This document shows positions 34,285 to 40,246 of a stretch of 40,246 nucleotides of DNA, piece by piece. This DNA comes from Bacteroidota bacterium (GTDB lineage: Bacteria; Bacteroidota; Bacteroidia; 2-12-FULL-35-15), in assembly GCA_947466965.1 (NCBI GenBank), contig CANIFU010000022.1:1-40246 (forward strand), written 5' to 3'. Both the position numbers and the translations under genes were made by a program. Within the stretch, counting starts at the first letter, position 1. Each line of letters begins with the position of its first letter. Below the pieces are notes generated by a model. That model worked only from the letters and a program-made list of their open reading frames with translations, made no database searches and was not told where the DNA came from.

Positions 34285-35943
34285 ATGAATATTATGGAAA
34301 ATAATTCAACAAAAACATCCGCATTACTTGCATTAATAACTGTGTTTTTTTTCTGGGGCTTTTTGGCAGCATCAAACGGAATTTTTATTCCGTTTTGTAA
34401 AACGCATTTTAATTTAAGTCAGTTTCAATCACAATTAATTGATAGTGCTTTTTACGGAGCTTATTTTATCGGCTCGTTGTTATTGTATGTATTCTCGTTA
34501 CAGTTTAATAAAGACATTATCAATAAAATTGGGTATAAGAAGACAATCATTTATGGTTTGCTTATTTCCATTGTAGGTGCATTGATAATGATTCCTGCCG
34601 TGAGTTCGGGATCTTTTATGTTTATACTTGCTGCTTTTTTTATTATTGCTCTTGGTTTTTCTTTGCAACAAACATCTGCAAATCCTTTGGTATTAAATTT
34701 AGGAAATCCTGCAACGGGTTCTTATCGTTTGAATTTTGCAGGAAGTGTTAACTCTTTGGGAACAGCTATTGGCCCTATTTTAGTAAGTTTGGCTTTGTTC
34801 GGAAAAGTTGTGGCATCTGATACAGATAAAAATTCTGCATCTTTAGATTCTATTAATATTTTATATATGATTTTAGCAGTTGCTTTTGGAGCAGCTATTG
34901 TTATTTTAATTTTTTCGAAAATCCCGAAATTAGAAATTGAAGAAGATGAATCGGAAGTTAAGGTTTTGAAACAGCCTTTGTTTTTTATCATGGGTATATT
35001 GACTTTCTTGTTTGGCGTTTTTGCATATTCGGCTTATGGAAGTTGTCATAATGCTCCTGCAAATAATATAGAGGAATCGCATAGTAAAATGATTTTTTTA
35101 TCTTCTATTGCAGGTTTTATATTGTTATTGCTGATTGTTCTTGTACTTCTTTACAATAAAATTAAAAAGGGAAATCGTTTTGAATTAGAAGCTTATCCTC
35201 AAGTAACATTGGGAATGATTGCCATATTTATTTATGTGGGAGTTGAAGTTACGATTCAAAGTAATATGGGTACGCTTTTGAAAACGCCTGAATTTGGTGG
35301 TTTAGATGATTCTAAAATTAGCCCGTTTATTTCATTGTATTGGGGAAGTTTAATGATAGGTCGTTGGACAGGTGCTATCGATGCTTTTAAATTAAAGAAA
35401 TCGGTAAACACCATTTTAACTTTGATTATTCCTTTTGTTGCATTTGCATTTGTGATTTTCATGAATCATTTGAATGGTTCGGATATGAGTGATTTTTATT
35501 TTTATGCAATATGTGTAGCCATTCTTTTAGGAGGATTTATATTAGGAAAAAATCGACCGACATTTACTTTAATGTTGTTTGGGATTTTAGGAACACTTGC
35601 AATGATTGTTGGTTTGTTGAGTCATGGAACAATTGGCATCTACGCATTTTTAAGTGGCGGTTTGTTTTGTTCCATCATGTGGCCATGTATTTTTTCTTTG
35701 GCAATTGCAGGATTAGGAAAATATACCAGCCAGGCATCTGGTTTTTTAATTATGATGATTTTAGGTGGTGCATTTATTCCTCCAATGCAAGGTCTGCTGT
35801 CTGATTACACAAGCATTCATATTTCTTACATTATACCTGTTTTTTGTTTTGTTTTTTTAACTTGGTATGCTTGGAAAATGAAAATTATTTTAAAGAAAAA
35901 AGGCATCGATTATGACAAAGCAGAGACTGGTAGCGGCCATTGA
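34285..35943 (+). CDS. FucP-type MFS sugar permease with two extra membrane segments
   Basis: A 552-residue transporter, longer than the ~410-440 usual for the fucose:H+ symporter (FucP) family. ALITVFFFWGFLAASNGIFI, GAYFIGSLLLYVF, IALGFSLQQTSANPLVLNLG and LNFAGSVNSLGTAIGP are the N-terminal family marks, and SLYWGSLMIGRWTGAID, ILGGAFIPPMQG and GLGKYTSQASGF are from the C-terminal half. Between them lies an insert of about 100 residues with two hydrophobic segments (FFIMGILTFLFGVFAY and LSSIAGFILLLLIVLVLLY). An alternative start nine bases downstream (MENNSTK) is possible. The 3' end overlaps the ROK kinase by 32 bases. GlcNAc, released by the enzymes encoded downstream, is a plausible substrate (NagP belongs to this family). 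Confidence 0.88.
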   Translation: MNIMENNSTKTSALLALITVFFFWGFLAASNGIFIPFCKTHFNLSQFQSQLIDSAFYGAYFIGSLLLYVFSLQFNKDIINKIGYKKTIIYGLLISIVGALIMIPAVSSGSFMFILAAFFIIALGFSLQQTSANPLVLNLGNPATGSYRLNFAGSVNSLGTAIGPILVSLALFGKVVASDTDKNSASLDSINILYMILAVAFGAAIVILIFSKIPKLEIEEDESEVKVLKQPLFFIMGILTFLFGVFAYSAYGSCHNAPANNIEESHSKMIFLSSIAGFILLLLIVLVLLYNKIKKGNRFELEAYPQVTLGMIAIFIYVGVEVTIQSNMGTLLKTPEFGGLDDSKISPFISLYWGSLMIGRWTGAIDAFKLKKSVNTILTLIIPFVAFAFVIFMNHLNGSDMSDFYFYAICVAILLGGFILGKNRPTFTLMLFGILGTLAMIVGLLSHGTIGIYAFLSGGLFCSIMWPCIFSLAIAGLGKYTSQASGFLIMMILGGAFIPPMQGLLSDYTSIHISYIIPVFCFVFLTWYAWKMKIILKKKGIDYDKAETGSGH

Positions 35944-36871
35944 TATTGGAGGAACCAATACTGTTTTTGGATTGGTCGATCTTGATGGACAAATTTTATT
36001 GAAAGAAACAATCTCAACGGCACATTTCCCTGAGCCTGAAGATTTGGTGCATGGTGTATGTGAGCAAATTGATCTTGCTATGCGACTCTTCGATTCCAAA
36101 TATGTGCTTGCCGGTGTTGGTATTGGTGCTCCCAATGGAAATTATTTTAATGGAACCATCGAATTTGCTCCAAATTTAAAATGGAAAGGTATTGTACCCT
36201 TAGCGAAATTATTTTCAAATCGTTTGAAGGTTAAAACAGTTCTTTCAAATGATGCGAATGCAGCAACAATTGGAGAAATGATTTTTGGCGGAGCAAAAGA
36301 AATGACGGATTTTATTCTCATTACTCTTGGTACAGGTCTTGGCAGTGGCATTGTATCAAACGGTGAAATCATTCTTGGTCATGATAGTTTTGCAGGCGAG
36401 ATCGGACATGTTATTATGTTTCCTGATGGAAGACAGTGTGGTTGCGGTAGAAAAGGTTGCCTAGAAACATACTGCTCTGCAACAGGCATCAAACAAACAT
36501 ATGCTGATTTATTAATGAGTCGCCATAGAGATTCACACACAAAAGTTCAAAATGGAACTGCAAAATATATTTATGGCAAAGCATTACAAGGTGATGCGGA
36601 TGCTATAACCGCTTTTAATCAAACCGGTGAAATACTGGGTTTAGCATTGGCTAACAGCGTTGCATATACTAGTCCAGAAGCGATTTTTTTGTTTGGCGGT
36701 TTAGCCATGGCTGGTGATTTTATTTTTAAACCTACAATCGAAAGTTTTGAAAGAAACGTGTTGAATATTTATAAAAATAAAATTAAAATTCTTCCTTCAC
36801 AATTGAATGAAAATAACGCAGCAATTCTTGGAGCAGCATCATTAATAATAAAAGCGTTAAATATTTCATAA
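35912..36871 (+). CDS. ROK family sugar kinase (glucokinase or GlcNAc kinase)
   Basis: A 319-residue ROK (repressor, ORF, kinase) protein without the N-terminal HTH, so a kinase. AAIDIGGTNTVFGLVDLDG binds phosphate, LSNDANAATIGEMIFGGAKE carries the catalytic Asp, and HVIMFPDGRQCGCGRKGCLE is the zinc-binding motif CxCGxxGCxE. Substrate specificity cannot be read directly. The 32-base overlap with a FucP-type permease and the GH20 and glycosylasparaginase genes nearby favour N-acetylglucosamine or glucose. Cytoplasmic. Confidence 0.88.
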   Translation: MTKQRLVAAIDIGGTNTVFGLVDLDGQILLKETISTAHFPEPEDLVHGVCEQIDLAMRLFDSKYVLAGVGIGAPNGNYFNGTIEFAPNLKWKGIVPLAKLFSNRLKVKTVLSNDANAATIGEMIFGGAKEMTDFILITLGTGLGSGIVSNGEIILGHDSFAGEIGHVIMFPDGRQCGCGRKGCLETYCSATGIKQTYADLLMSRHRDSHTKVQNGTAKYIYGKALQGDADAITAFNQTGEILGLALANSVAYTSPEAIFLFGGLAMAGDFIFKPTIESFERNVLNIYKNKIKILPSQLNENNAAILGAASLIIKALNIS

Positions 36872-36937
36872 GATTTCGATTGAACTAATAATTGCCATAT
36901 AAAAAATATTCGAATTTTTTAAAAAATTAATAGAATT

Positions 36938-37127
36938 GTGACAAAAAATAAAGAGGAACATTGGTTAGATCTTTTTTTTAATTTTCTTTATTTCATTCAT
37001 GATTTTAATCGGTATTTTAGTTTACGTTTATTTAGTAGGTGTTCTTATAAGCAATTATAAAAGAAACGTGAATAGCTCTAGTTTTTTAAATTCAAATTAC
37101 TACTTTGATTTTGTATTTATTTACTAA
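36938..37127 (+). pseudogene. Possible small membrane protein split by a frameshift at a T8 tract
   Basis: From a GTG at 36938 a frame reads MTKNKEEHWLD and then enters a run of eight T (36972-36979). If the run had seven T, it would continue into the next frame: LFLIFFISFMILIGILVYVY, LVGVLISNYKRNV and on to the stop at 37125-37127, about 60 residues with a short polar head, one strong membrane segment and a polar tail. The unshifted second part also has its own ATG at 36999 (42 residues). Either a sequencing error, a phase-variable or slippery tract, or a dead gene. No other features were seen between the ROK gene and the hexosaminidase. Confidence 0.4.
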
Positions 37128-37140
37128 TTATTATATTGAT

Positions 37141-38781
37141 ATGAAAAGAATATTATTTATTGTTGCTTGTTTTTTATTTTCAATAGTTGGTGTTGCACAG
37201 AAACAAACACCATTGAAATCATTGCCCCTTATCCCTCTTCCAAAAGATGTGAAATGGAGTAATGATCATTTTATATTAAGTTCACAAACTAAAATTGTTT
37301 TAATGTCGGATGCCTTTAAACCGGAAGTCGACTATATCAATAATTATTTTAAAGCAAACTACGGGTTTGAATTAGCCACTGTCCTTGTTCTCCCTTCCGA
37401 TGGTAATTACATTCTTATTTCACGTCCTGATTTTGAAGCTGGCTGGCTCGAAAATTATGAATTAAATATAAATCAAAATCAGATTTTTATAGTAGCAGAA
37501 GGCAATGCTGGTTTGTTTTATGCAATACAAACGCTACAACAAATTCTTCCATTAGAAAAATCTCCAGAAATAAAAATCCCATGTGTTCAGATAAAAGACG
37601 CACCACGTTATAAATGGCGAGGGATGCATTTGGATTGCAGTAGGCACTTTTTTACCAAGGATGAAGTAAAAAAGTACATTGATTATTTAGCCATGTATAA
37701 ATTCAATGTTTTTCATTGGCATTTGGTAGATGATCAGGGCTGGAGAATTGAAATAAAAAAATATCCTTTACTAACATCTATTGGCGGAACAAGAAAAGAA
37801 ACAATCATCGGAAAAGCAGTTTGGAATAAAGATGGAACACCTTCAAAAGATAATAAATATGATGGTATAGCATATGGTGGTTTTTATACCCAGAACGACA
37901 TAAAAGAAATTGTTGCCTATGCCCAAAGTAAATACATAACTGTATTACCTGAGATTGAAATGCCCGGACATTCATTGGCAGCTCTTGCCGCTTATCCTCA
38001 ATTTTCATGTACAGGTGGTTCCTTCGAGACGTTCACTCGATGGGGTGTTTCAGATGATGTATATTGTGCCGGAAGGGATGAGACATTTTCTTTTTTAGAA
38101 GATATTTTGACGGAGGTAATGGAATTGTTTCCTGGAAAATATATTCATATTGGTGGTGACGAGTGCCTGAAGGATCGTTGGAAAGCATGCCCTAAATGTC
38201 AACAACGAATTTCTGTTGAGAAATTAAAAACAGAAGAAGGTCTACAAAGTTATTTTATCACCCGTATTGAAAAATTTGTGAACTCAAGAGGAAAACAAAT
38301 AATTGGCTGGGACGAAATTTTGGAAGGAGGATTGGCACCCAATGCTGCTTTAATGAGCTGGAGAGGAGTTAAAGGGGGAATTGAAGCTGCAAAGCAAAAA
38401 CACAATGTGGTGATGAGTCCCGGTAAACCTTGTTACTTCGATCATTACCAGTCGAAAGACAAAACAAAAGAACCCCTGGCAATTGGTGGTTTCAATCCCT
38501 TGGATTCAGTGTATGCATATAATCCCACACCCACATTTTTAAATGCTGGAGAATCAGAATTCATTATGGGTGCCCAAGCGAATGTTTGGACAGAATACAT
38601 TACATCCTTTGCACAAGTTGAATACATGTCTATGCCTCGTATGGCAGCATTGTCGGAAGTATTATGGACACCTACAGAAAAGAAAAATTACAAAGATTTT
38701 ATTATAAGATTAAAATTGCATGCACCAGCCCTAGATAAGTTAGGAGTAAATTATGCAAAGCACTTTAAATCATTGAAGTAG
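37141..38781 (+). CDS. Beta-N-acetylhexosaminidase (GH20), exported
   Basis: A 546-residue glycoside hydrolase family 20 enzyme. I choose the ATG at 37141 because MKRILFIVACFLFSIVGVAQ is a signal peptide; an ATG-like start 36 bases upstream would add an odd prefix. An N-terminal GH20b domain (about 25-150) is followed by the TIM barrel: RYKWRGMHLDCSRHFF, FHWHLVDDQGWRIEI, VLPEIEMPGHSLAAL, the catalytic Asp-Glu pair in HIGGDECLKDRW, and MGAQANVWTEYI. It removes terminal beta-GlcNAc or GalNAc from glycans by substrate-assisted catalysis. Periplasmic or secreted. Next to a glycosylasparaginase and downstream of a sugar permease and kinase. Confidence 0.95.
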   Translation: MKRILFIVACFLFSIVGVAQKQTPLKSLPLIPLPKDVKWSNDHFILSSQTKIVLMSDAFKPEVDYINNYFKANYGFELATVLVLPSDGNYILISRPDFEAGWLENYELNINQNQIFIVAEGNAGLFYAIQTLQQILPLEKSPEIKIPCVQIKDAPRYKWRGMHLDCSRHFFTKDEVKKYIDYLAMYKFNVFHWHLVDDQGWRIEIKKYPLLTSIGGTRKETIIGKAVWNKDGTPSKDNKYDGIAYGGFYTQNDIKEIVAYAQSKYITVLPEIEMPGHSLAALAAYPQFSCTGGSFETFTRWGVSDDVYCAGRDETFSFLEDILTEVMELFPGKYIHIGGDECLKDRWKACPKCQQRISVEKLKTEEGLQSYFITRIEKFVNSRGKQIIGWDEILEGGLAPNAALMSWRGVKGGIEAAKQKHNVVMSPGKPCYFDHYQSKDKTKEPLAIGGFNPLDSVYAYNPTPTFLNAGESEFIMGAQANVWTEYITSFAQVEYMSMPRMAALSEVLWTPTEKKNYKDFIIRLKLHAPALDKLGVNYAKHFKSLK

Positions 38782-38899
38782 TTTACTTATATTAGTAAGT
38801 AAGAAAAACTACCTTGTAAATGTATAACAGGATTTCCTTTTTAGTAAACTAATTTTTATTTGTTTTCAGAAATCGAAGTCGCTAAATCTTTTTATCTAT

Positions 38900-39892
38900 A
38901 TGACTACCAGACGAAATTTTATTAAATCAACAGCATTTGCATCCGCTGCTTTACTAATTAATAAATCGGAAGCTGCCGAATTAAATTTGAAACAGAATGA
39001 AACTACTCTTTCAAAACCAATTGTTTTGTCGACATGGAATTTTGGGTTAAAAGCAAATGAAGCTGCATGGGAAGTCCTCAGCAAAAATGGCAAAGCATTA
39101 GATGCGGTAGAAGCAGGAGTAAAAGTTCCCGAAGGCGATCCAACAGAGCGCAGCGTTGGGTATGGTGGTCGTCCAGATAGAGATGGAAGAGTTACTTTGG
39201 ATGCTTGTATTATGGATGAAAATGCTAACATTGGCTCCGTAGCATGTTTAGAGCATATCAAACATCCAATATCCGTTGCAAGAGCTGTGATGGAAAAAAC
39301 ACCTCACGTAATGTTGGTTGGTGATGGCGCGTTGCAATTTGCTTTATCTCAAGGATTCCAAAAAGAAAATTTATTGGTTGAAGATTCTGAAAAAGAATGG
39401 AAAGAGTGGTTACAAAATACTAATTACAAACCCATTGTGAACATCGAAAATCATGATACGATTGGAATGATTGCTTTAGATGCTTCCGGAAATTTGTCGG
39501 GTGCTTGTACAACTAGTGGAATGGCTTTTAAAATGCACGGTAGAGTTGGTGATTCTCCTATCATTGGAGCAGGTTTGTATGTGGATAATGAAATTGGTGC
39601 CGCCACTGCAACTGGTCATGGTGAAGAAGTAATACGCATTGCTGGTTGTCATTTGGTGGTGGAATTGATGCGTCAGGGAAAATCTCCTGAAGATGCTTGT
39701 AAAGAAGCGGTGAACAGAGTTGTGAAATTAACAGCAAACAGAAAAAAAAATTTAAAAGATATTCAGGTTGGTTTTATTGCTTTAAACAAAAAAGGGGAAT
39801 ATGGTTCCTATTGTGTTCAAAGTGGATTTAATTATGCGGTATATGATGGAAAAGGGAATAATTTAATTGATGCAGATTATCATCTAAAGTAG
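38900..39892 (+). CDS. N4-(beta-N-acetylglucosaminyl)-L-asparaginase (glycosylasparaginase)
   Basis: A 330-residue Ntn-hydrolase that cuts the GlcNAc-Asn linkage of N-glycoproteins. The N-terminus TTRRNFIKSTAFASAALLI is a twin-arginine signal, so export of the folded protein to the periplasm is expected. Self-cleavage takes place between Asp186 and Thr187 in NHDTIGMIAL, exposing Thr187 as the nucleophile; GGRPDRDGRVTLDACIMD and GRVGDSPIIGAGLYVDNEIG are other family regions, and TGHGEEVIR is near the active site. The closest characterised relative is the Elizabethkingia (Flavobacterium) enzyme. It is the final gene of the GlcNAc-handling group and is followed by the 81-bp repeats. Confidence 0.95.
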   Translation: MTTRRNFIKSTAFASAALLINKSEAAELNLKQNETTLSKPIVLSTWNFGLKANEAAWEVLSKNGKALDAVEAGVKVPEGDPTERSVGYGGRPDRDGRVTLDACIMDENANIGSVACLEHIKHPISVARAVMEKTPHVMLVGDGALQFALSQGFQKENLLVEDSEKEWKEWLQNTNYKPIVNIENHDTIGMIALDASGNLSGACTTSGMAFKMHGRVGDSPIIGAGLYVDNEIGAATATGHGEEVIRIAGCHLVVELMRQGKSPEDACKEAVNRVVKLTANRKKNLKDIQVGFIALNKKGEYGSYCVQSGFNYAVYDGKGNNLIDADYHLK

Positions 39893-39929
39893 ATTTAGTA
39901 GGTTAGTTTTGAATGAAAGAATAGACACT

Positions 39930-40246
39930 TCCCCCTTGGAGAAGAGGTTAGTGGGATTGATGTTGGCTTTTTTAATTTTAATAGTAAAGTAAAATTTCAA
40001 TAAGGACAATTTCCCCTTGGAGAAGATGTTAGTGGGATTGATGTTGACGCTTTTAATTTTATTAGTAAAGTAAAATTTTAATAAGGACAATTCCCCCTTG
40101 GAGAAGATGTTAGTGGGATTGATGTTGACGCTTTTAATTTTATTAGTAAAGTAAAATTTTAATAAGGACAATTTCCCCTTGGAGAAGATGTTAGTGGGAT
40201 TGATGTTGGCGCTTTTAATTTTATTAGTAAAGTAAAATTTCAATAA
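39930..40246. repeat. 81-bp tandem repeat array, about four copies, running off the window
   Basis: Copies start at about 39930, 40011, 40092 and 40173; the CTTGGAGAAG core is spaced at exactly 81 bases each time. The copies differ only by single bases (GAGG versus GATG near the start; GGCTTTTTTAATTTTAATAG versus GACGCTTTTAATTTTATTAG). The fourth is cut by the window edge. Between copies there are no unique spacers, so this is not CRISPR. The period is 27 codons, which keeps one minus-strand frame open across all copies (27-residue unit containing NKIKSVNINPTNIFSKG), with no clear start in the window. Confidence 0.9.

Follow-up and report, generated by a model that had tools for sequence, protein, structure and literature searches.

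The window, by which we mean the whole 40,246-nucleotide stretch of DNA analyzed here, comprises all of contig C22 of a Bacteroidota genome (G000; 3.1 Mb, 128 contigs). At its end a glycosylasparaginase gene is followed by a tandem array, and the features there are as follows:

38900..39892, plus strand: glycosylasparaginase (Asparaginase_2; Pfam PF01112, E 4e-73), the host-side flank
39924..40004, plus strand: array unit 1, a decayed hairpin core CCCCCTTGGAGAAGAGGTTAGTGGG and a spacer; 93% to consensus
40005..40085, plus strand: array unit 2; 98% to consensus
40086..40166, plus strand: array unit 3; 99% to consensus
40167..40246, plus strand: array unit 4, truncated where the contig stops and lying in the overlap with contig C16; 98% to consensus
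39884..40243, minus strand: open frame of 119 aa counted from a TTG, with nothing to indicate a gene; it extends past the contig end, and its continuation on C16 leads to an ATG

A preliminary description of this DNA had reported an 81-bp tandem array of at least 3.9 near-identical copies 3′ of the glycosylasparaginase. TRF confirmed this, finding a single array at 39924-40246 with a period of 81, 4.0 copies, 95% matches, 0% indels and a score of 569, starting just past the gene end at 39892. The core CCCCTTGGAGAAG recurs in exact copies that start at 39932, 40013, 40094 and 40175, in 81-base steps, and each unit pairs a one-armed hairpin remnant (GGGGGCTAGGGGG decayed to GATGTTAGTGGG or similar) with roughly 49 bases of spacer. 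Contig C22, and with it the assembled sequence, ends at 40246, which is why the array stops there. When the rest of G000 was searched for the unit, the ends of C22 and C16 gave the only full-length 81-bp matches; the short core was also found elsewhere, in arrays with periods of 48, 57, 58, 80, 98 and 139 bp.

The last 124 bases of C22 are identical to the end of C16, in an orientation that fits joining both contigs, and in G028, a genome of the same genus, the glycosylasparaginase, the units, an intact hairpin, the DUF559 gene and CutC lie on one contig. Given the overlap, the fitting orientation and the arrangement in G028, the two contigs are likely to be joined in the genome. Since the overlap falls inside the repeat, four units is the count on C22 alone, and the total in G000 may differ. 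On C16 the last unit is followed by an intact hairpin (CCCCCTTGGAGAAGGGGG-CA-GGGGG), a DUF559 gene (PF04480, E 1e-28), two hairpins in the opposite orientation, CutC, a GH2 mannosidase and a GH92 gene. This DUF559 gene is the sole one found in G000 at E <= 0.01, the genome being 95.6% complete. The genes on the two sides, a ROK kinase, a GH20 and the glycosylasparaginase (window 35912-39892) and then CutC, the GH2 mannosidase and GH92 on C16, look like an N-glycan degradation cluster that the element has interrupted.

On its 3′ side the DUF559 gene carries a separate 81-bp array, which is read in frame as 27-residue units of the DUF559 tail, within a frame of 224 aa in G009 and of 301 aa in G028; the G028 array makes six 81-bp steps and a final step of 80. 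The preliminary description had offered a repeat-rich gene beyond the window as one possibility, and this proved half right: the gene beyond is DUF559, with the far-side 81-bp array in its frame, but the far-side array is a different one. The idea that the repeats are coding fits, unexpectedly, the other side of the DUF559 gene (the 3′ array in G009 and G028), not the array in the window. An 81-bp period with unrelated spacers is seen in three arrays, namely the 5′ array of G000, the 3′ array shared by G000 (L061) and G028 (L161), and the 3′ array of G009 (L160).

Hairpins of the type that borders the DUF559 gene are frequent in G000, which has 35 CCCCCTTN2-6AAGGGGG sites versus 0 for the reversed control. 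Across 36 genomes of the genus there were 67 DUF559 matches. The analysis covered 61 loci, without G002:C15, G014:C3 (second fragment only), G021:C274, G022:C1254, G030:C66 and G033:C82, and these 61 were divided into stand-alone and long-frame loci according to whether or not the open frame was under 320 aa. Around the 41 stand-alone loci hairpins occurred at 3.5/kb within 150 bp (27/41 loci) and at 0.016/kb beyond 600 bp, and around the 20 long-frame loci at 2.7/kb within 150 bp (10/20) and at 0.028/kb beyond 600 bp. Hairpins lay within 200 bp on both sides of 14 of the 37 stand-alone genes with enough flank (37/41) versus 0 of 3399 control windows taken from elsewhere in the same loci, and on either side of 26 of the 37 versus 21 of the 3399. 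The corresponding figures for the long-frame loci were 7/20 versus 0/1603 on both sides and 10/20 versus 20/1603 on either side. A second G/C run accompanied the stand-alone hairpins on the gene side in 42/52 cases, on both sides in 8 and on the outside in 2; in the long-frame class it was on the outside in 17/17.

The association was incomplete. No CCCC hairpin was seen within 300 bp of L134, L136, L138, L141, L142 and L144, a DUF559 subgroup whose proteins start VHNKKSL or similar and which may use another terminus or be domesticated; their relative L135 has one. The same search within 300 bp was negative for L147 and L155, and 10 of the 20 long-frame loci had no hairpin above the cut-off.

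The glycosylasparaginase-CutC site is polymorphic within the genus. It was compared in 17 of the 18 relatives with a close glycosylasparaginase (L210 of G012, whose stretch has no CutC, was left out), and the states found were near-empty, hairpin-only, DUF559, and DUF559 with an array. With start codons placed by eye, the gap between the two genes is about 24 bp or less in 9/17 relatives, and the insertion is therefore recent relative to the age of the genus. The site in G027 holds a single unit without DUF559, and the hairpin there looks like a hybrid left by a deletion; G028 has two units, of 80 and 82 bp. This series of one unit in G027, two in G028 and four in G000 supports the earlier suggestion of an intergenic repeat family amplified in place; the accompanying suggestion of a recombination hotspot is plausible, and the interpretation given in the preliminary description is, overall, partly supported. 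Other repeat-like inserts occupy the same site in L202 (G013; an inverted pair, GTCATCCCGGGCTTGACCCGGGAT) and L197 (G035).

DUF559 domains with hairpin-like coded linkers were also found in frame inside host proteins, namely LeuS, IleS, MetH and acetyl-CoA synthetase (Acs); one protein per host passes the NCBIfam equivalog cut-off and the others of the 20 were assigned by eye. Four proteins with inserts (two LeuS, one IleS, one Acs) were scanned with Pfam, and none matched an intein family. At the LeuS position, 30 loci inspected by eye fell into four groups: DUF559 was inserted in 4 and a hairpin-type sequence in 6 (of these six, one is strongly decayed and one contains a further, nested palindrome), 15 were uninterrupted, and 5 had slightly longer linkers and no hairpin; the LeuS of G006, outside the 30 loci, is a fifth DUF559 insert. 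The states of this site vary like those of the glycosylasparaginase-CutC site, but without arrays.

Beyond the genus, we examined the best 80 of at least 569 relatives, retrieved with an alignment of 11 genus sequences; as most of these come from hairpin-flanked genes, the 80 loci represent that part of DUF559 and not DUF559 as a whole. By record titles and taxonomy this named set is mostly Bacteroidota and spans about a dozen phyla, many of the records being binned metagenome contigs that are possibly misassigned. A CCCC...GGGG hairpin was present within 300 bp at 73 of the 80 loci versus 73 of 2725 control windows, and eight alternative stem starts were found at 0-7 of the 80. Exact inverted repeats of at least 13 nt spanned the gene at 26/79 loci (one short flank was dropped) versus 4/2552 windows. 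The second G/C run was inside in 81 of 121 hairpins, outside in 12, on both sides in 3 and absent in 25.

Stem type co-varied with the enzyme. Of 141 DUF559 domains, four short ones were dropped to give 137, and a further 25 without a hairpin and 7 with rare stem types to give a tree of 105. On this tree the five stem types CCCCCTT, CCCCTCT, CCCCTCC, CCCCCTC and CCCCCGC required 12 changes versus a shuffled mean of 51.5, with 0/200 shuffles as low, for a tree made by a quick method from few columns, with many open forks, in which near-copies favor the clustering of any label. Paralogs from the genus sit in different clades, each with the stem type of its clade. This co-variation supports the view that a DUF559 enzyme may recognize its stem.

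The DUF559 family (COG2852) is widespread in bacteria and has no function assigned to it in Pfam. An AlphaFold2 model of the protein (mean pLDDT 85.6) matched in fold PDB 3hrl, an endonuclease-like Neisseria protein (8e-7), I-Bth0305I (8e-5) and, weakly, Vsr (0.01). Six residues (E17, D46, E57, D59, H63 and D70) show 99-100% conservation across 136-137 domains, the in-frame ones included; four of them, E17, D46, H63 and D70, presumably correspond to the catalytic E-D-H-D of the EDxHD family. The conservation of these putative catalytic residues argues for the DUF559 proteins here being active nucleases. PADLOC assigned the two DUF559 proteins submitted to it to 0 defence families at E <= 0.01.

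Taken jointly, these data make it probable, in our judgment, that the window array is a 5′ terminus, amplified in place and for the most part decayed, of a DUF559 hairpin element inserted between glycosylasparaginase and CutC, and that the element is spread by cut-and-repair through its enzyme. Such an element is made up of a DUF559 endonuclease gene between hairpin termini in inverted orientation (TCCCC-stem-loop-stem-GGGG, then a few bases and a second G run), and hairpin-only copies of the same stem type are scattered through the genome. In the scheme that we infer for how it cuts, moves and enlarges arrays, the enzyme would recognize its own stem type and nick or cut at or beside the extruded hairpin; repair against another hairpin-bearing copy would spread the element or its termini, and misrepair or slippage between neighboring hairpins would duplicate a hairpin together with its flank, giving rise to tandem arrays. 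The units in the window lack the stem, and therefore their amplification need not involve the enzyme; this array may have grown by slippage alone.

It is a short step from there to a plain minisatellite produced by replication slippage, whose closeness to DUF559 would be incidental. Amplification of the units despite the lost stem, and a copy number that varies among relatives, would suit such an origin, as would the presence of hairpin-less arrays at contig ends, where they make up 8 of 13 end rows. Yet the array sits at the element's own terminus, and among the 44 TRF array rows of period at least 24 on C49-C128 (80 contigs; some rows being the same array), units bearing a hairpin occurred in 5 of the 13 rows touching contig ends (four by script, one by eye) and in 0 of the 31 internal rows. 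As an account of the whole locus we regard the minisatellite as unlikely, though a serious contender; it may be right for the growth step alone.

Rather improbable, as we see it, is that the hairpins belong to a REP-like family of their own, mobilized by a different enzyme (e.g. RAYT), with DUF559 representing homing endonucleases that land there. The fold match to a homing endonuclease, and the sharing of one LeuS site by hairpin-type and DUF559 inserts, are what would be expected of a landing site, but stem type tracks the DUF559 tree, and this means enzyme-stem matching at the least. As regards RAYT, Y1_Tnp matches are present in 29/36 genomes, and these have somewhat more hairpins (p 0.05, ancestry ignored); against this, hairpin counts for the two types scored do not track the number of Y1_Tnp matches (rho 0.14 across the 36 genomes), G033, G035 and G016 have 23-40 hairpins of these types and no Y1_Tnp match, and G026 has 5 Y1_Tnp matches and no hairpin of either type. 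The counts thus disfavor RAYT as the mobilizer. The correlation with GIY-YIG matches was 0.18, and that with DUF559 matches 0.55 (p 5e-4, ancestry ignored).

Counts within genomes bear on the pairing of hairpins and DUF559 in other ways, again with ancestry ignored. DUF559 is present in 31 of the 36 genomes and absent from 5, and hairpins were commoner in the former group (p 0.0016); moreover, the hairpin type of a genome matched the type flanking its DUF559 genes once sites within 800 bp of DUF559 were removed (p 0.002 and 1.9e-4). Exceptions were G007, which lacks a DUF559 match but has 16 hairpins of a single type, and G002, G003, G016 and G027, with 18-36 CCCCCTT hairpins and no DUF559 flanked by CCCCCTT among the loci examined.

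That the hairpins serve small genes as transcription terminators and are linked to DUF559 as a by-product of dense gene packing is very improbable: they are G+C-rich stem-loops and often intergenic, but among 416 mechanical ORFs of 80-250 aa (G000 C49-C128) hairpins within 200 bp lay on both sides of 0 and on either side of 7, the hairpins in LeuS, MetH, Acs and IleS are read through in frame, and flanking hairpins mostly lead to a second G/C run and not to a T run.

The preliminary description had further noted that a minus-strand frame stays open through all copies. It does, at 39884-40246 (119-120 aa), and on C16, where it accounts for 72 aa, it extends as far as an ATG next to the start of DUF559. 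In G028, however, where the unit spacing is 80 and 82 bp, all three minus frames contain stops, and therefore the frame is not conserved. With these stops, this spacing and a Pfam scan of the frame that matched no family, coding of the array on the minus strand was ruled out, and since the core is a decayed hairpin found genome-wide at periods of 48, 57, 58, 80 and 98 bp, we give almost no credence to a genuine protein built of 27-residue repeats.

The best reading of the whole is a REP/REPIN-like system with a Vsr/EDxHD-like nuclease in place of RAYT. A broader proposition, which we hold to be evenly balanced, assigns DUF559 (COG2852), as dedicated enzyme, to a third bacterial REP-like hairpin superfamily in about a dozen phyla, with clade-specific stems, spread by cut-and-repair, in-frame insertion in essential genes without splicing, and arrays as a by-product. 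The pairing of a nuclease clade with a hairpin type provides a testable role for DUF559 and a candidate enzyme for a class of REP-like repeats, and it would account for odd peptides and extra domains in central enzymes, tRNA synthetases among them. Should the pairing reflect recognition, the substrate of each enzyme could be predicted from the genome alone.

In the portions of the REP literature drawn on here (PMC3733652), GTAG REPs come with RAYTs, and CGTC REPs are without a dedicated transposase. As in REP/REPIN and RAYT REPtrons, we found short scattered hairpins, inverted pairs and an enzyme gene flanked by the same hairpins, with some copies inside reading frames and clusters tandemly reiterated with flanking DNA, as that portion of the source describes (PMC3733652). 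Of the REPtron traits, the scattered hairpins and the inverted pairs around an enzyme gene are thus present here; a Y1_Tnp gene flanked by repeats is not, the flanked gene being PF04480 and the one weak Y1_Tnp match of G000 lying on C8 (E 1e-7). The enzyme here is accordingly DUF559, a Vsr/EDxHD-like nuclease, and theirs, in the sections consulted, an HUH tyrosine transposase (PMC3733652). Nor does GTAG stand at the stem foot, where at this locus CCCCCTAG or CCCCTG precedes the stem, with CTAA, CCAG and similar elsewhere; in place of the GTAG tag given in the source (PMC3733652), the stems here are accompanied by a second run of C or G, e.g. CCCCTAG. The palindromic hairpins, inverted dimers and in-frame insertion in genes resemble those of CGTC-tagged REPs and of Rickettsia palindromic elements, but stems here start with CCCC and there is one candidate enzyme, unlike in CGTC REPs as this account presents them (PMC3733652). 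In Legionella pneumophila, segments with a transposase and DUF559 have been described as mutation and recombination hotspots (PMC12308824), and like the elements here these DUF559 segments are repeated, recombining with each other in experimental evolution; unlike them, they are accompanied by a transposase, and hairpins are not described in the portion of that paper used here (PMC12308824). The open-access literature searched yielded no link between DUF559 and hairpin repeats.

The elements also resemble EDxHD/Vsr-like homing endonucleases, e.g. I-Bth0305I (PDB 3r3p), in fold, in what is presumably the same E-D-H-D order of conserved residues, and in insertion into conserved genes. Unlike endonucleases of the I-Bth0305I type, DUF559 here comes with hairpin termini and many hairpin-only copies, and the four in-frame proteins scanned matched no intein family. 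Occupied and empty sites were seen both between glycosylasparaginase and CutC and in LeuS. A DUF559 gene has been placed in the EDxHD family, according to the part of the report relied on here (PMC9403480). In the LeuS of G009 (L326), a CGTC-like palindrome, GTCATCCTGAGCGGAGTCGAAGGA, lies within a DUF559-type hairpin insert, as if nested. The LeuS matches of G000 fall on two contigs, C92:504-800 and C97:7394-7585, a split that may be another assembly break at a repeat.
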